Positions 33,851 through 61,529 of a stretch of DNA of 64,000 nt are shown here, piece by piece. The notes below the pieces were generated by a model. It saw nothing but the letters and a program-made list of their open reading frames with translations, did not search any database and was not told where the DNA came from. The stretch comes from Loxodes magnus (lineage: Eukaryota; Ciliophora; Karyorelictea; Loxodida; Loxodidae), in assembly GCA_946699065.1 (NCBI GenBank), contig CAMPDV010002022.1, forward strand, positions 1 to 64,000, written 5' to 3'. Made by a program: the position numbers and the translations under genes. Positions within the stretch are counted from its first letter, which is position 1; each line of letters begins with the position of its first letter.

Positions 33851-35038
33851 ACTAACTTCTATAATTGAAAGAAGCAATTCTTACAGTTATAAATGCCAAA
33901 AAACTCTTTCAGTTTGAAAATAAAAAAATTTTATTCTTAATTTTTCTTTTCATTAGGTAGCTTTGAGATTTCTTACTCCGTAATTTCACATTTATTTTTA
34001 TATCTGATTAGAGCTTATTTCTAGTTGCTTAAAGTTAATTTCATTTATATTTTAGCATATAAAATTAGGAAGATTTTTAAAATGTTGTCCAGCTTCGTTG
34101 CATTTGTATTTTATGTTGGTTATAATAAGATTATTAGTAGAATAATTTTTCCAAGATCTATAATTATACCAATTATTTAGGTATATTAAATTCAGCTAGA
34201 TCAATACGAAATAATTGTTTATTAATAAATTTCTTCATTATTTTATAGCTTTTGAAAATAAGACATAATTTCCTTTAAAATTAAACTTAGAGCTGCAGAG
34301 GACCTACATATTGTTGATATTTCCAATAATCTTAGTTAATTCTGATTCAATTTTATTTGAAAAAATTTAACTTTCCAATGTCACTTTGGAATTAATTTAT
34401 AGAAGTTAATTAATATTAACTATTAATTAAAAATAAGTTGTTTATTTGTTGAGAAATTAGATTAGTTAAAATAGGATTATCCCTTCTTTCAGTTAACATA
34501 CAACTATAATGACTTAGCCAAGTAGATTATTGTTCATTTTAATTATAGGAAAATTAAAATTCCATTTTTAATAAAAAAAATAGTAGTATAAGATTAAAAA
34601 ATATAAATAAATAAATTTGATTATAATAATATCATTTCTAAATAATTTTATTAAGCTTTTTATCTTTTAAACAAACTAATTGGTTAAATTTTATTTAAAA
34701 TACTTAAAAAAATTAAAATTTTTCTTTAATTCTAAAGGGCTTTTTAAGTAAAAATCTTAGATTTCTTATTTCTTATATTTTAATTAAATATTTTGTCAGT
34801 TTCAAATCAGAAAACAAGGTATTATATTTTAAAAAACTTTAATATAAATGAACTTAAATTAAAATCCCTCTATACGTAATTATAATCGTATGCCTCGTGT
34901 AAAAATCTTAACTTTAATTACCTAATATTCTCTGAAATGTTTATAGATAACTTAAATACTTAGCATACTTTACCTAATTTTAATAATTTACTTCTTAAAT
35001 TGTAAAAATTTATAAGTCTTAAAAATATTTGACTTCTC
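33851..35038. other. no gene recognised
   Basis: A+T-rich DNA between LINE D and the WD40 gene; no motif on either strand. Confidence 0.4.
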
Positions 35039-35698
35039 TCAACTTGCTATTATCCACTTTCTCACAGTTTTATCTTCAGCTCCAGATAAAATTCATCTAT
35101 TTTTCTTACTCAGAGCTATAAATTATATTCCATCTGAATGTCCTTAAAGAGTTACAATGCATTAACCTGTATTAAAATTCCATATCTTGATTAACTTGTC
35201 ACAAGATCCAGAAATTATTACACTTGAATCATTACTTATCTAAACACTTGATACACCACTTGAGTGACCTTCTAGAGTTCGAACTCACTGAAAAGTTATA
35301 AAATTCCATATCTTTATCGTCTAATCATCACTTCCCGATACAATTCATTTCTGGTCCCTTGATATCGCAACAGAGTAAACATAATGCTTATGTCCCTACA
35401 AATTATTCTTTAACTAACCAGTTGTAAAGTCTCGTATCTTTATCATCTAATCATCACCTCCTGATATGATTCATTTCTAGTCACTTGATATCGTTACAGA
35501 GTTGATACAATCTCTATATCCCTACAAAGTACTTTTTAACTAGCCAGTTGTAAAGTCTCATATCTTTATTGTCTTATCAGCACTCCCCGATACGATTCAT
35601 TTCTGGTTTGGGGAGAAGGTTACAGATAATAAATAATCATTATGTCCCTACAAAATCTAGTCTGAAAATTAAGAATTACCTTTAGTTTCATCGTAGTT
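35039..35698 (-). CDS. WD40-repeat protein, C-terminal part
   Basis: A 219-codon frame without interruption encodes five WD40 blades, each with a GH...S.S-type turn, a K/R-W-I-x-SG strand and a [I/V]K/R-[I/K]-W end. In blade one the WD tryptophan itself is TGA (IKI-TGA-D), while blades three and four use TGG. Blade two has Arg (CGA). The K-W-I-V-S-G tryptophan is TGA in every blade that has it. WD40 propellers are protein-protein platforms. The frame ends at TGA (35039-35041) just after the last blade. The upstream part is missing, because the frame runs back into a zinc-knuckle gene on the same strand, which suggests truncation by that insertion. The blades resemble those of the kinase-WD40 gene at 44.2-44.6 kb. 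Confidence 0.8.
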
Positions 35699-35774
35699 TA
35701 TTATTTTTACAAGTTTTTAAAAACATAAGTTGGGTAGGATTTCATATTTAAAAAGAAGAAGCGCAATTTTGCCA

Positions 35775-36478
35775 AGGAACAATAGTTTCTTTATTTCTAT
35801 TAGAATTTCTAACATTTCCGATAAAAATGTCATACGCTTCCACAGCAGAAACATTTCTTTTTTATTTTGAATTATTTTTCTTGATTTTTTTGCTCTTTCT
35901 AGGCTTCGATTTCCATTTGTATAGCTCCAGTTTTGCTTTACTCTTTCTTAAAAATTTACAATTTCTCTTCTACTTTTCCGAGTCTATTATCCAGTTCAGT
36001 CTGTGTTTAATGCTACTTTTAGGATTCGTTAATCTGACTTTGGGAGATATTCCAAAAGGCGTTAAGATCTCTTTCCTAGGACATAAGTCTTGACTTAATA
36101 CCTTCTGCTAGGTCTAGCTTTGCCATCAGCATATCATTGTCCTTCTTCAATCTCTTGACCTCTTCCTAGAGGTTCAGTACCACTTTGATGAACTACTCCG
36201 TGCTCATCTCGCAGAAGGGTTTAACTCTGATACCTCCTGGTTGAGAACAGACTTCATCTGTTCCTCGGTTTCTCGCTTAAGGTTGGAGTTTCCGTGTGTA
36301 TATTCTTCAAAGTTGGCTTTCGTTCGTTTTGTTAGATTCCAAGTTGTTAGTTCAGTGTTGGTTAAGGTTGTGATAGAGAAGAATGTTAAGATTAATAAGA
36401 CTTGGTTTCTTGCTTCCTCCCTTCCTTTTTGGCTTAGGAAGAGGTGGCATAGAAGCCTGACTTGAAACCTTCAACCAT
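35775..36478 (-). pseudogene. zinc-knuckle gene, subfamily B (B1), frameshifted
   Basis: Starts MVEGFKSGFYATSS at 36478, close to MEGLKKGFYTTS of B2. The frame shifts after about 90 codons and again before the coiled coil, then runs through STEQFIKVVLNLQEEV, matching B2, to KIKKKCFCC and the rest of the knuckle C-x2-C-x4-H-x4-C. The residue before the knuckle His is TGA, as in copy A1. A short second motif (NYCSLAK) follows. It is 60 bp downstream of F-box gene 1 and directly upstream of the WD40 frame. With two indels it is probably inactive unless they are sequence errors. Confidence 0.7.
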
Positions 36479-36537: not shown

Positions 36538-38784
36538 TTAATTGTCCTCAACTAATAAAATCTCACCTATCTTGAAATCCTTTATTTTATTTTCTTTACT
36601 GTTATACTATCCATCTTAGTAAACTTTTATAGTTTTTAGATTTTAGGTTTATTCATTAATATATTACTAGTTTATTCTGAAGCATCCATATAAATATAAA
36701 ATTTTCAAATTAATTCACAGGTTATATAAAAGACCCTACTCATTTTTAAATATAAATCCTTCCTAAGTCAATTAATTATTATAACTTAGATCTAAATTCT
36801 ATAAAGTATTGCAAAATTTTATTATTTTATGTATATCTTCGTTTCTTACTTAGCACTGATATAGTTTCAATGAAGTTAACTTTTAGATTTTTACTATTGA
36901 ATCAACCCAATTTTCATTCAAAAAATTGCAATCCAGAAATGATAGTTTATTTAGGCTAAAGCAGTATTTATTAATTGCTTCTAACGTTTGATTTGATATA
37001 TTACTTATTTCTCTTAAGTATATTTACTTTAGTTTATTACAGTTTTAGAATATAAAATTTAAAGTTTCGTCTTTCAACTGAAATAAGCTTTACAAATATA
37101 TTTCCTCTAATTTCTAATTATAGGTGCCTATATACTTAAGTGTCTAATTTTATAAATTTTGCAAATCTTCTAAATTCAAAGTTTTTAAATTTGGAGTATT
37201 TTTTATAATTAAAGCGAAAGTTTTATCTTATACACTATCACCTACAATTGCTATTTAGTATAGTTATGAAAGTTATATTTAATGCTCAAAATTGTTTGTG
37301 CTTTATGAGCATTGCTAATTTGTCTAATCTCCTTATAAATTTATAAAAGATATTTATTTTAAATTCGGAGTAATCTATAAAAACTATTTCAGGGTTTGAT
37401 CATTGAAAGGCATGCAATTCTGTATAAAAATGCTTTCAAGCTTATTTAGATATAAATCTGAGAAGTCAAAATGTGACCTCTCTGTCTAGTTTTATCTATC
37501 TTGCTACACATTTAAATCTACTACGAAGTTAACATCAAATTAGTTTCATACTAAATCTTTTAGATTTGTAGTACTTTAGAGTAATAAAAGGAAAAGGTTC
37601 TTCTAAAATGCCATATAGTTTGCTATTTCTATATATTCAAGCTAGTCTCACTTATAAGAAAAGAAATCAATCAACGCTTCGATACTAAAATTTTCTATCT
37701 TAATCTTTAACTTCTATAATCTCAAATTCATTATCTATTTTAAAACGATATCTTATAAATCGTTTGCTTCTGATAAATCAACAATATTCAAATTTGGACA
37801 AAAATTTAAGAAATCCTATGTTATATTGTTTATTTATAATTATTTAACAAATTTCCCTTTTATCTATAAGAAATTTTTAATATAATCACTATTCATCTGC
37901 TCACATATAATTTTTATCGTTTTTAATTATTAATTTTAGCAGTATGTTTATAGGAACTCACCTGTTATATTTTATACTCCATCAAGAGAAATAAACTCTA
38001 GATTTAATAAATTGCTTATAAATTATAAATCATTATCCGTTATAGTTATTCTGCAAATATTCAGATGCTTCAAATTCATACAACTTGATAGATCGGGTAT
38101 ACCCTTAATAGTTGCATAAGTATAGCTATATATTATAATTTCTGAAACCTTGACATTTTAACCATTTTTAATATATTTCTACCTAAAATTTAGACATTTG
38201 TTAAACTCTTTAATAAACTGATTTCATATATTCATAGAATTTACTATTTAAATAGATATTTTGCTAAAATCTTAAAAAGCTATTTATTTTAATTATCAAT
38301 GCAACTTATTTCTAAGTTATTCTTCATTATCTTCATTATCTTCATTATCACCTTTATCTTGAAACTCAATAATTTAAATTTTAAAAGTGAATTTATTGAA
38401 GAATTTACTAGCTTACTATAAAATTGCTATTGTTCTATAATCTAAAAATTAAAATACTTAATCAAGGATATTCTTGTTTTTTCAAAAGCTTTTATATACA
38501 CTCTTTGCTTTTAAATGATGTTCCTATTATGATTAAATTTCTTGGCTTTTCTTTTATTAATCGTAATTTTAACCTTAATTTGCTAAGCTATTAGTATCAG
38601 GAAACTCTTTCTTTTATATTTTTAAAGATTCAGAAATTTAAACATTTTATATGAAATTCCCTTACTATTGCTATAGCATTCAACATTCCTAGCAACTAGT
38701 ATTTAAACAGTCCTATTCTTGATTATTTTAGTCTTAGTTACAATTACTGCATTTATAGCAAGAAATAATATAGTTAGACTACAT
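36538..38784 (-). CDS. F-box/leucine-rich-repeat protein 1
   Basis: Frame verified codon by codon from ATG at 38784 to TAA at 36538-36540 (749 codons incl. stop) with TAA/TAG as Gln and seven internal TGA as Trp; TGG occurs once. Residues 9-34 hold six Cys (not kept in the paralogues). Residues about 103-135 form an F-box (NILDQVFQFLDYRTIAILQQ). An acidic DNE triplet follows, then leucine-rich repeats to the end, for example IPDLSSCMNLKHLNI and TPNLKTLNLEDLQNL. F-box proteins usually link a substrate to an SCF ubiquitin ligase through Skp1, with the LRRs binding substrate; that role is inferred. No introns are evident. Stop choice rests on a TAA at the same place in all three paralogues. Confidence 0.85.
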
Positions 38785-41817: not shown

Positions 41818-42554
41818 TTTTTAATATTGAATTCTAGTTAATTAGTATAAAATGTATTATTTATTTACAGCATGATATTACTCTATTTATTTATAGTTTT
41901 TAATATATAATATTTATTTACTATCAAATTAATCTAACTTAAATAAGTCTTATAATATAACTTTCAATTGGAATATAAAAGAAGAAAAATAAAGTTAATT
42001 TAAGTATAAAACTATTATAGCAGCGAAATAGTATTAGAATGATATTCTTTTAGTAGTTAATTAAAATATAAAATAGCTAGTATTAGGTAACTCTTATAAA
42101 AAGCTAATTTATATAATTATTTCTGATATTTTATTGTATTAAAATGCTTGCTTTAATACTTATAAGTGGAGACTAGTATCGACTAAGATTTCGCTATAGA
42201 TATTTAGAACTTGAAAAAATTTCTATAATTGATAGTGGAAGGTTTGGTACTGTTTATAGAGGGAAATGGCAAGAAAGTACTGATGTGGCTATAAAAGAAC
42301 TAATAAATTAGTTTTTAACAAATGAAGCAATTAAGGAATTTTTATAAGAGTTTAATATACCAAAAAAGCTTCGTCATCCAAATGTAGTTTTATTATATGG
42401 ATATTGTCCTTCTCCAATGAATTTGGTTATGGAGCTAATGTAATAATCTTTGTATAAATTTTTACATAGTAGAGAAGAGATTGAATGAGAGTTAAGATAT
42501 AAGATAAGTTTGTAGGTAGTATAGGGATTATAATACATTCATGAATTGAATATA

Positions 42555-43445
<891 letters not shown>

Positions 43446-44174
43446 TAAGTGGGAACTACGCGTTGGATGGCTCCAGAGTTACTGACACTTAGACCTAGAT
43501 ACAGTAAGCAATCGGATATATATGCTTTAGGTATGGTATTTTGGGAAATAGCAACAAGAGTTATTCCATTTTAAAAAGAAAGTCGATTAGGTTGTTATAA
43601 ATTATGTTTTGAAAGAAGGAAGAGAGTAAATACCTGAAGTTTGTCCTGAATAGTTTGGTTACATAATAAGAGGGTGTTGATGATAGATGCTTTAAAAAAG
43701 ATTGAATTTAGAATCGCTAAAATAATATTTATTATAACTATCAGAATTACCATAAGTCTAAGTAAATCCTGTCGCTAACCCCTAAAACACAGAGCATTTA
43801 AATAAAAGCAGATAAAAAATATTATAATTTTTAGCGCAGTTTAGGTAATAAAAGATAACTATTGAGTATATAGAGTAAAGTTTATTAAATAACGAAAATT
43901 GGATAGAATAAACAGACATTCTACAATAGTTAGAGAGCGTGAGAAGTAAATAATTAGAGTAAAATTTTTTAGAAGTCATTAAAGCATATAAATGGAGTAA
44001 TGAAATATTTTAAGTATCGGGAAATGCAATATAATCATTTATTCATTTGGGTTATAGGTTCATAAATTTAGATTTGTAAGGAGTGAGAATAAAAGGAGTT
44101 GATTTAAGTGAATCATATTTTGAGGGGTGTGATTTCAGAAATTCAAATCTATAAGAGATAAATATGATAAATAC

Positions 44175-49728: not shown

Positions 49729-51981
49729 TTAATTTTCCTCTTCTAATAAAACCTTTCCTAAATCTATTTCGGTATCTTTTCTCTCTTTTTAGGTCTGCTA
49801 ATCTTAAAAATAATAATGTAAGATTTTAAGATTTTTGCCTTACTCACTAATCAAATCTCACTTTATTTAGTTGCATCTAAGTAACTATAGGGTTATTAAA
49901 CTATTTCATATTGGATAGTAAAATCCTTGCTCGTCTTTAAATATAAATCCTTCCTAAGTCAATAAATCATTAGAACATAAGTTCAAATGCTATAATAAAT
50001 GACAATTTTTTATTATCTTATGCAAATCTTAATTTCTTACTTAGCACTGTTGAAGTCCCAATGTGGTTAACTTCTAGATTTTCACAATTTAATCAATCCA
50101 ATTTTCATTCAAAAAAGTGCATTAATATAAAGAAAGATAATCTAGTTTAAAACAATATTTATTGATAGTTTCTAGAGTTTAATTTGATATAGTTCTTATT
50201 AAGTAAAGCTTTATTATTTCTAGTTTATTACAGTTTTAGAATATTAAATTTAATGCTTCATCTTTCAATTGAAATAAGTTCTACAGCAATAATTCTTTTA
50301 ATTTCTAATTGTGCTGTCCTATAGATTTAAGGGTATAATCTACTAGTTAGTTTAAATTTATTATTTTTAATAACCTTAAATTTGGGCTACTGTTTAAAAT
50401 AAGAGCTAATGTTTCATCTTATAAATAGTTAGGACCTTCTAGTGTTAATTTATATAAGGATGCAAGTTACAATAAATGCATTTTATTGCTTATTCCTTAT
50501 TATTAGTTCTAGATTTCTTCTTAATTTGGTTCATTTTTCAATTAATTTCTTTATATTATAGATAATTTTTATAAATTTGGAGTAATGAGCAGTAAAGATA
50601 TTAAGGATTGGTCAACAAAAGACATACAATCATTTATATAAAGTTTTTCAAGTTTTAGCAAACTTAAATTATAGCAGTAAAAGCTAGAAATCCCTTCTTC
50701 ATTTAAATTCTTAAATTATGTATTCTAACTAATTACTAAGCTGCTATTAGCCTAACTTCATTTTAATTTTTTTAGATTTGGAGCATTTTAGAGTATTAAA
50801 AAGAAAAGCTGAATTTAAAATATCATAGAGTTGTTTATTTCAATATATTCTAGTTAGTTTCATTTATTTTAAAAGAAGTTAATCAATGCTTCATGACTAA
50901 AATTTCATATCTAAATCTTTAACTTCTTTAAGTTCAAACTAATTATATATTACAAAGTTTCTTTTTCTATATCTTATGCTTTCAATAAATCAATGCAGCT
51001 CAAATTAGGACAATAGCTAAGAAAATCCTATATTCTATAGTTTATTAATAGTTCTTCTACAAATTTACCTTTTATTGCTAAAAAGCTTTTAATATAGCCA
51101 TAATTTATTTTTTCACTCTCAATTATTATAATTTTTAGCTTTAAATCTTAGCAGTAATTTATTAAGAACTCACCTGTTATATTTTTGACTCATTAAAGGT
51201 AAATAAATTCTAAACTAGGCACATTCTTCAAAAACCTTAAATCATTATCCATTATATTTATTCATTAAACAGTCAGATGTTTTAAGTTTATACAACTTGA
51301 CAAATCAGGTATATTCCTGAGAGTTTAAAAAAAGATGTATTATATTTTAATTTCTTAAATCTAAACATTTTAACTACTTTTAATAATTTTCTTTCTGAAA
51401 TGCATGCATCTATTAAACTCTTAAATTACTTGATCTCAAACATTCTGAGAAAAATCAGATAAATTGAAATAGATTTGTTTAATATCTTAGTAAGCTATTT
51501 ATTTTAATTGCCATTATAACCTATTTTTAATAATCTCTTCCTTATTCTTATAAAATGATAACTGTAATTATTAAATTTGATAGGTAAATTTATTGAAGAG
51601 TTTACTAACTTATTATAAAACTGCTATTTCTTTGGTATCTAAAAATTAAAATACTTAGTCAAGGATATTCTTGTTCTTTCAAAATTGTTTACTTACAATA
51701 TCTATCTAAATTACTGGTTCCTAGTTAGTTTTTACTTAATTATTTATCTTTTATTATCCAAAAGCATTATCAGAATTTTGCTAGTTGCTTATATCAGGAA
51801 AATCTTAATTTATGCTTTATGAATGTTCAGAAGTTTAAATATTAAGCACTAGATTTCTTTCCTCTTATTATAGATTTAAGCCTTCCTAGCAGTAAGTATT
51901 TCAACAATCTAATTCTTGACGCATTTAAGTCTAGTTTTATAGCCTGCATTTGGAGTAATAATTATACGTGTTAGACTACAT
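49729..51981 (-). CDS. F-box/leucine-rich-repeat protein 2
   Basis: ATG at 51981 and TAA at 49729-49731 are exactly in register (751 codons incl. stop), and all sampled segments align with gene 1: start MQSN, FPDISN, FWKNKNILDQVFQFLD (F-box, about residues 105-140, W as TGA at 51679-51681), the LRR body with N-K-TGA-N-Q-L-E-Y-I-E-I, and an end reading DLGKVLLEEEN before TAA. The N-terminal Cys cluster of gene 1 is mostly lost. Same likely role as gene 1, probably with different substrates. The middle was not translated codon by codon, but net frame is preserved over 2.25 kb. Confidence 0.8.
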
Positions 51982-59276: not shown

Positions 59277-61529
59277 TTAACTTTACTCCACTAATAATAT
59301 CTTCCCTAAATTGAAGTCTTTAACCTTTCTATCTTTGTAAGTCTGCTAGCTTCTAAAATAACGTTGTAGGACCTTAAGATTTTTACCTTACTCATCGATT
59401 AAATTTCATTTTATTTAGTTGCATCCATATAAATTTAAATTTCTTAAGTTATTTCATATTGAATAGTAAAAATCTTACTCGTTTTTGAATATAAATCCTT
59501 CTTAGTTCAAATCATCATTATGACTTAAATCCAAATTTTATAAATAGTCACAATTTTTTATTATTTTTACTAAATCTTCATTCTATACTAAACATGAAGA
59601 TAGCTTCAATGTAGTTAACTTTTAGATTCTCACAATTTAATCCATCCAATTATCTTTCAAAAAAGTGCATTAATACAATGAAAGATGAATTAGACTATAG
59701 CAATATTTACTAATTGTTTCTAGAGTTTAATTAGATATATTTCTTATTAGCCTTAATTCTACTGTTTTCAGTTTGTTACAATTTTAAAATATGAAATTTA
59801 AAGCTTCATCAGTCATTTGAATCAAATTCCTAAAATATAGTTCCTCTAATTTCTATATATATTATCCTATAGATCTAATAGTCTAATCTTTAAGTTAGCT
59901 TAAATTTATTAAGTTTAACATTCTTAAATTTTGGGTATTTTTTAGAATAAGAGCAAACGTTTCATCTTATAATTAATTAAGCCCTTCTAGTGTTAATTTG
60001 TATAAGGAAGTGAGTTACAATAAAGGCATTTTATTGCTTATTCCTTATTATTAGTTCTAGATTTCTTCTTGATTTGGTTTATTTTTAAATTAATTTCTTT
60101 AAATTAAAGATAGTTTTTATAAATTTGGAGTAGTCTATAGTAAAGATATGAGGGATTGATCATTAAAAGGCATGCAATAATGTATAGAAATGTTTTAAAG
60201 TTTGATTAAACTTAAATTATATTAACTAAAGCTTTAAATTTGTTCTTAATTTCAATTGTTTATTTACTTATTTGAACCTATTTCTAAGTTACCATTAATC
60301 TACTTTCATTTTATTTTTCTAAGATTTGGAGCATTTTGAAGTAATTAAAAGAAAAATTGTACTTAAATTGTCATTTAGTTTCCTATTTCTATATATTCAA
60401 GTTAGTTTCACTTATTAGAAAAGAAATTAGTCACTGCTTCTATATTTAAATTCTTAAACTAAATCTTTAAGTCTAATAAGTTTAAACTCGTTAGTTACTT
60501 TAAATTTTATTTTTACAGATAGTATGCATTCAATAAATTAATACAAATCAAATTAGGACATTAGGTTATGAAATCCTATGTGTTATTGTTTATTTCTAGT
60601 TCTTTAATAAAGTTGCCTTTTACCATTAAAAAGCTTTTAATACACTCATTATTTATCTTTTCACTCTTAATTTTTATTACTTTTAAGTTTAAATCTTAGC
60701 AATTATTTATTAAGAACTAACCTGTTATATTTTCTATAGAAATAAGAGAGATGTATTCTAAATTAGGTAAATTCTTCATCAATTTTAAATCATTATCTGT
60801 TATATTTATTTTCTGAATATCTAGATGCTTTAAGTTTTGGCAGCTTGATAAATCAGGTATATTACTAATAATTTAATAACCTAAGCTTTTTAAATTAATT
60901 TCTTATATCTTTACATGTTAGCCTTTTTTAATATTTTTCAGTCTAAAATCTATACATCTATTAAACTCTTAAATTACTTAATTTCATACTTTCTGAGATA
61001 GGAAAGATGCATTTAAATCTATTTGCTTGATATCTGAATAAGCTATTTATTTAAAAAATCAATATAATCTACTTTTAGTTTATTTTTCATCATCTTCATT
61101 AATTTTTATTTGTAATTGTAAAATTTTAAAGGTGAACTTATAGAAGTATTTGCTAACTTACTATAAAGCTTTTATTTCTTTATTATTTAAATGCTAAAAT
61201 ACTTAGGTAACGATATTCTTGTTTTTCCAAAAAATGCCATTTACGCTCTATTCTTAGATTTTAAGTTCCTTATTCATTTAAACTTCATTGATTATCTTTT
61301 ATTAATCATATGTTTTATCTAAATCTTCTATCTTGCTAATATCAGGAGATTCTTTTTTTAAGTGTTATTGGTGTTAAGTAGTCTAAATATTCTATATGAT
61401 ACTATTTTCTTATTACTATAGATTTAAACTTTCCTAGAAGCTATTATTTTAATAGTCCTATTCTAAATATTCTAAAGCCTAGTTATAGCTTTTAGATTTT
61501 GAACAAGAAATGCTCTTGTTTGGCTACAT
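59277..61529 (-). CDS. F-box/leucine-rich-repeat protein 3
   Basis: ATG at 61529 and TAA at 59277-59279 are in register (751 codons incl. stop). Segments translated: MQPNKSISCSK start, SPDISKIEDLD, F-box FWKNKNIVTQVFQHLNNKE with W as TGG (61227-61229) where genes 1 and 2 have TGA, an acidic NEDDEK, LRRs such as IPDLSSCQNLKHLDI and LMKNLPNLEYISLI, and an end DFNLGKILLVEQS. An alternative earlier TAA lies two codons upstream. Likely substrate receptor of an SCF-type ubiquitin ligase by family. High divergence between paralogues with conserved length suggests they are functional. Confidence 0.82.

Follow-up and report, generated by a model that had tools for sequence, protein, structure and literature searches.

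The LRR gene family and its neighbours

The window, by which we mean the whole stretch of 64,000 nucleotides analysed here, is part of contig C2022 of an assembly of 705,730,643 bases in 7843 contigs. It contains three full-length copies of an LRR gene as well as WD40 and protein kinase sequences, at the following positions:

36541..38784, minus strand: LRR gene of 748 codons (copy A; FBXL type, F-box weak), identified by homology and by its paralogues
36538..36540, minus strand: terminal TAA of copy A, a probable stop, judged by TAA at 18 of 19 non-redundant family ends and a drop in GC
38680..38682, minus strand: TGA codon 35 of copy A; Leu opposite in both window paralogues
38482..38484, minus strand: TGA codon 101; TGA and TGG in the paralogues
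38296..38298, minus strand: TGA codon 163; TGG and TGA in the paralogues
38224..38226, minus strand: TGA codon 187; TGA in both paralogues
37648..37650, minus strand: TGA codon 379; TGA in both paralogues
37546..37548, minus strand: TGA codon 413; TGA in both paralogues
36715..36717, minus strand: TGA codon 690, 59 codons 5' of the terminal TAA; 8 TGA and 1 TGG among nine aligned copies
49732..51960, minus strand: paralogue B of copy A, followed by TAA at 49729-49731
59283..61526, minus strand: paralogue C of copy A; terminal TAA at 59277-59279
34730..35899, minus strand: WD40 repeats (Pfam WD40), with TGA at some Trp positions and a TGA-containing motif at 35569
42216..43592, plus strand: protein kinase domain in two pieces (Pfam Pkinase, 1.3e-17 and 1.4e-24), with WD40 repeats downstream

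Copy A lies on the minus strand at 36538-38784 in frame 1 and runs from M1 to N748, followed by the last TAA. The initial annotation had described this frame, without naming the strand, as continuous over 748 codons if TAA, TAG and TGA are all read as sense and as using TGG once, and both statements agree with the codon tally, which amounts to 7 TGA, 1 TGG, 54 TAA and 27 TAG in 749 codons when the last TAA is counted. The open frame as such is no evidence, because without stop codons every frame is open; the frame rises above chance because of its LRR homology and because the assembly holds 62 matches to it, full-length paralogues among them (the count covers the gene itself and split pieces). 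The translation of copy A matches the LRRs of FBXL2 (E 4.5e-16) and FBXL17 (E 1.7e-15) in phmmer searches and the Pfam LRR family PF24758 (E 1.8e-10). On the opposite strand, by contrast, the one frame scanned gave no Pfam family at E≤1. Of the F-box/LRR label given at the outset, the LRR half is well founded, but the F-box half is weak, with no Pfam F-box at E≤1 and a phmmer match of -2.1 bits over residues 104-132; a literature search for Loxodes magnus together with F-box turned up no report.

Two of the 62 matches are the further full-length copies B and C inside the window, which share 51-61% identity with each other and with copy A. All pairs can be aligned as proteins and carry synonymous changes (99-117 among 375-452 identical residues), and differences are most frequent at third codon positions in all three pairs, modestly so in two of them (261 vs 246 and 190; 257 vs 234 and 194; 236 vs 180 and 146). 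On sequence grounds, copy A is one ordinary gene among the many copies of an LRR (F-box/LRR-like) family that uses the karyorelict code.

The same reading had been extended initially to WD40, kinase, zinc-knuckle and reverse transcriptase sequences elsewhere in the window. For the WD40 and kinase domains this was borne out by Pfam, the WD40 stretch scoring E 1.1e-52 when translated with code 27 versus 3.8e-42 when TAA, TAG and TGA were all rendered as X. Zinc knuckles were seen as CCHC motif matches only (5960+, 28296-, 35853-, 41217-, 42940- and 58624-); these share a similar basic context, and four of the six have a TGA within the motif. The reverse transcriptase was not confirmed: none of 20 stretches scanned had a Pfam match of this kind, and two loose motif matches were all that appeared. 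ARAGORN found no tRNA genes in the window. Arrays of near-alike WD40 repeats at multiples of 126 bp, some with in-frame TGA, were also seen on contigs C1503, C119, C9, C620, C1832 and C272.

Annotated with the standard code, the window has no open frame of 150 codons. If TGA alone is taken as a stop, the longest ORF measures 682 aa, inside the range of 20 Markov simulations (401-839), and 30 ORFs reach at least 300 aa, against 13-30 in the simulations, one of the 20 attaining this number. ORF length was hence rejected as evidence, the longest ORF lying within the Markov null.

Codon meaning, tRNAs and eRF1

Six of the seven TGAs of copy A are opposite Trp in both window paralogues, TGG being used at two such columns, and the initial view that all seven occupy plausible Trp sites stands for these six but not for codon 35 with its Leu in both. 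Across the three copies, TGA occurs in any of them at 13 columns; Trp is shared by every copy at 6 of these, by two copies at 1, and is confined to a single copy at 6; Gln is common to all three at 36 columns, and its codon varies among the copies at 18 of these. We rejected the notion that TGA codon 690 is a true stop, as homology runs on past it, the third codon position there being the most variable in each of the three pairs, and as codon 690 also interchanges with TGG among the copies.

Independent genes were consulted for the meaning of the three codons. From 136 kinase matches the first 70 were aligned with X at all three codons (one kinase with a low orientation score was retained), and each codon was scored by what the remaining sequences have in its column, considering columns filled to at least 60% with at least 10 comparators. 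For TGA (n=48) the best residue was Trp with a log-likelihood of 142, followed by Phe with 17 (TGG control: Trp 344); for TAA (n=330) Gln led with 144 over Lys with 59, and for TAG (n=159) Gln led with 83 over Lys with 40 (CAA control: Gln 146). In columns with a majority residue, the 35 kinase TGAs fell on Trp 32 times, on Ile twice (in a column beside a Trp column) and on Leu once. The Gln signal in the kinases derives from variable columns, because none of the majority-residue columns with TAA, TAG or the control codon CAA has Gln, Lys and Glu being foremost there. A 1271-residue piece of Prp8, again with X at stops, was aligned to human Prp8 and counted by eye: 12 of 12 TGAs are opposite human Trp, and of its 42 TAA/TAG codons 32 lie within the printed alignment, 22 of them opposite Gln and 10 opposite other residues (K twice, T twice, and P, L, E, R, G and S). 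In eRF1, likewise compared with the human protein by eye, 9 of 20 aligned TAA/TAG codons are opposite Gln, including that of GGQ and both Gln of QEGSQF, and 11 are opposite other residues. Tabulating the aligned residues, as proposed at the outset, thus favours Trp for TGA and Gln for TAA and TAG in kinases, Prp8 and the window paralogues alike, and the TGA columns, with Trp at 12/12 in Prp8 and 32/35 in the kinase majority columns, are far from random. These alignments support the assignment of TAA/TAG to Gln and of TGA to Trp inside genes.

A search pattern for tRNA-Gln(UUA) gave 397 tRNA-like sites in the assembly versus 6 in the reversed control; these are unfolded pattern matches, and all 100 of the 397 that were listed have the anticodon TTA. 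The tRNA-Trp(CCA) pattern gave 130 sites and none in the reversed control, with CCA in all 100 matches listed. For tRNA-Trp(UCA), the matches listed included no exact one; at up to one mismatch 125 sites were obtained, and the best 100 of the 125 all carry CCA. Among five tRNA-Trp(CCA) genes that were fetched, three from arrays have a 4-bp anticodon stem and two on contig C110 have a 5-bp stem. The 4-bp genes, which lie on contigs C67 and C148 and represent two distinct sequences, show an A-C or T-C mismatch at pair 27-43. The arrays are tandem, with at least 48 sites at C67:482301-491368 and at least 50 at C148:155442-168961 and units of about 188 and about 241 bp, and the two full-stem genes on C110 stand singly. 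Regularly spaced tRNA-Lys(TTT) sites also form tandem arrays, on C78, C103 and C158, and on C78 they lie beside tRNA-Ala(TGC).

In these ciliates, UGA is reported to be read by a tRNA-Trp(CCA) whose anticodon stem has 4 bp; such short-stem tRNAs had been noted in Loxodes before (PMC12005148, PMC13092985). To take the absence of a UGA-decoding tRNA, in practice of a tRNA-Trp with anticodon UCA, as a refutation of the code would therefore misfire, because the tRNA reported to read UGA carries CCA; this yardstick was mis-set, and short-stem tRNA-Trp(CCA) genes do occur here, in tandem arrays. The coexistence of arrayed short-stem and lone full-stem tRNA-Trp(CCA) genes offers a natural comparison for the dosing of UGA decoding.

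Two eRF1 paralogues were found, both directly followed by TGA. The one aligned to human eRF1 is altered, as the inspection suggested by the initial annotation brought out, by E55A, F56H, T58R, S60Q and Y125F, and keeps GTS.

UAA as a candidate second stop

The ends of the LRR family were compared in 23 sampled copies, 19 after removal of four near-identical ones, with one frame-shifted copy left out of codon counts. The codon at which the family alignment stops is TAA in 21 of the 23 and in 18 of the 19, the exceptions being AAA, and the DNA there mostly reads AAT TAA CTTAAGA. Across this point the mean GC content falls from 26% before to 15% after the terminal TAA, and an in-frame TGA follows within the next 47-50 codons in only 4 of the 19 copies. 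With the terminal codon left free in the search pattern, 23 exact sites were retrieved (20 TAA, 1 AAA, 2 GAT), although a good part of these are duplicates that hardly differ; only exact sites were counted, because the pattern with one mismatch gave 127 sites, with many other codons, against 61 in the reversed control. An unrelated gene, Pelota (C2:1760500-1764500), likewise has a coding tail that ends FMI-TAA, where GC drops from 40% to 23%, and 170 codons separate this TAA from the next TGA in frame; the frame ending in TAA scores best in all four 15-codon bins preceding it. The Pelota gene also holds a 21-nt GT...AG stretch that resembles an intron. In two LRR copies, on contigs C1192 and C88, AAA replaces the terminal TAA, and the C88 copy reaches a TGA six codons on.

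We consider it somewhat more likely than not that UAA also terminates translation in the LRR family and in Pelota, which would extend the best explanation given below rather than replace it and would place the code nearer to that of Condylostoma, with more than one stop, than to a UGA-only scheme. This is in line with the nearly uniform TAA at the family ends (18/19 non-redundant copies, 20/23 exact sites), the GC drop, the scarcity of in-frame TGAs beyond (4/19) and the case of the unrelated Pelota, as well as with the depletion of UAA ahead of stops reported in the L. magnus genome paper (PMC11441545). On the other hand, that paper, where it treats the code, names UGA as the sole stop (PMC11441545). 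The fall of TAA towards LRR ends (9/360 codons vs 60/1101) is also unspecific, being common to all Gln codons (16/360 vs 115/1101), and another Gln column of the family is equally uniform, with TAA in 8 of 8 Gln rows. The LRR copies are moreover related, 2 of 23 carry AAA, the one-mismatch pattern is noisy, and codon scores at the ends of copies A and B single out no frame. In Pelota, a TGA in another frame lies two codons 5' of the TAA, so that a missed frame-shifting intron would undo this case.

Predicted gene ends were uninformative in this respect, as our home-made gene finder is too rough for stop usage, recovering no more than a 124-codon fragment of copy A and missing B and C altogether. 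At its 94 predicted ends, TGA made up 22/470 of the first five in-frame codons after the end versus 3-9/470 per bin upstream, yet 47 of the 94 had no TGA within 12 codons; TAA amounted to 39/470 codons right after the ends versus 28-36 per bin further on. The rise of TGA just behind these ends, together with the TGA behind both eRF1 copies, agrees with UGA acting as a stop at natural gene ends. A pattern for actin ends gave 57 sites in the assembly versus 7 in the reversed control.

Taken together, we put at slightly better than even the chance that UAA functions in Loxodes as a second stop codon, conserved in the LRR family (mostly as AAU-UAA-CUUAAGA) and in Pelota, yet read as Gln elsewhere in the same genes. 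The initial claim that all three stop codons are sense would then hold inside genes but not for the terminal TAA at 36538-36540, which is probably a stop; therefore, perhaps not every TAA is sense. If so, translation would continue past this point in the two LRR copies with AAA, in one of which it would meet a UGA six codons further on, and a single genome would rely on position to tell two stop-capable codons from sense ones. Our literature search turned up no report of a stop-UAA in Loxodes; a 2022 Peer Community Journal paper on karyorelict codes reportedly allows for stop-UAA in a small fraction of transcripts. The conserved terminal UAA provides a concrete multicopy test for a second stop codon in Loxodes, and the comparative evidence suggests that UAA serves there as an additional stop in a minority of cases.

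A different account of the family ends would be that the copies end in a short intron with the 3' part TTAACTTAAG, the real stop lying in a further exon. To our eye TTAACTTAAG does look like a branch point plus AG, a 21-nt GT...AG stretch fits in copy A, and short introns (mode 17 bp) are described for L. magnus (PMC11441545). Such an intron is nevertheless unlikely, and was rejected as the general cause, because no more than 8 of 19 copies offer a GT at 4-24 nt upstream; in addition, some copies end in AAA or AAC where AG would be required, and the DNA downstream has a GC content of 15%.

Less likely still is a pseudogene origin of the LRR copies, in which they would have decayed and the TGAs would be nonsense mutations. 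The copies are admittedly many and some are broken into pieces, and the poor yield of the gene finder from A, B and C would fit decay. Against this stand the excess of third-position differences in all three pairs with their 99-117 synonymous changes, the interchange of TGA and TGG at conserved columns, and the identical decoding in Prp8 and the kinases. Codes in which TGA means Cys (Euplotes-like) or in which TAA/TAG alone are reassigned (Tetrahymena-like, table 6) are both known in ciliates, but either is exceedingly improbable here, the kinase likelihoods leaving Cys outside the best four residues for TGA with Trp far ahead, on which ground Cys was rejected, and Prp8 having Trp at 12 of 12 TGAs.

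The karyorelict code among known systems

With a probability of about 95%, the window is nuclear DNA from Loxodes magnus, a karyorelict, or from a species very close to it, and is written in the published ambiguous code, a reading that draws on the codon meanings, the tRNA genes or tRNA-like sites, the eRF1 changes and the TGA after both eRF1 copies observed here. In the decoding scheme that goes with it, tRNA-Gln species whose anticodons match UAA and UAG would insert Gln at these two codons. UGA inside genes would be read as Trp by the tRNA-Trp(CCA) with a 4-bp anticodon stem, presumably by near-cognate decoding as the literature has it, and UGA near the mRNA end would act as a stop via the altered eRF1, with the 3'-end context as the switch suggested by the literature.

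The 2024 L. magnus genome paper describes a 706-Mbp MAC assembly with many tandem repeats and assigns it the karyorelict code (table 27), in which UGA means Trp and is at the same time the sole stop (PMC11441545). The initial attribution to the Condylostoma/karyorelict group or to an undescribed relative was thus right as to a karyorelict and wrong as to an undescribed organism, the code of Loxodes magnus having been published. The all-sense code, the organism and the short-stem tRNA are already in print. What our analysis contributes is a confirmation of the published all-sense, context-dependent code from raw sequence, its added value lying in the comparative evidence on UAA as a stop and in the difference between tRNA-Trp genes with short stems, which lie in arrays, and those with full stems, which stand singly.

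Compared with the karyorelict code of Loxodes and Parduczia (table 27), the window and assembly are alike in UAA/UAG as Gln, in UGA as Trp inside genes and in UGA after both eRF1 copies, and unlike in that the LRR family and Pelota apparently stop at UAA. The Condylostoma magnum code bears the number 28 among the NCBI tables. It is similar in that all 64 codons are sense and in that more than one codon is probably also able to stop (PMC4967479); here the stop and the candidate second stop are UGA and UAA, and the assembly fits Loxodes. Blastocrithidia nonstop, in the portrayal given by PMC12005148 and PMC13092985, resembles our case in reading UGA as Trp via a tRNA-Trp(CCA) with a 4-bp stem. 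A further likeness is that UAA doubles as a stop in Blastocrithidia, while the sense meaning of UAR differs, being Glu in Blastocrithidia and Gln here.
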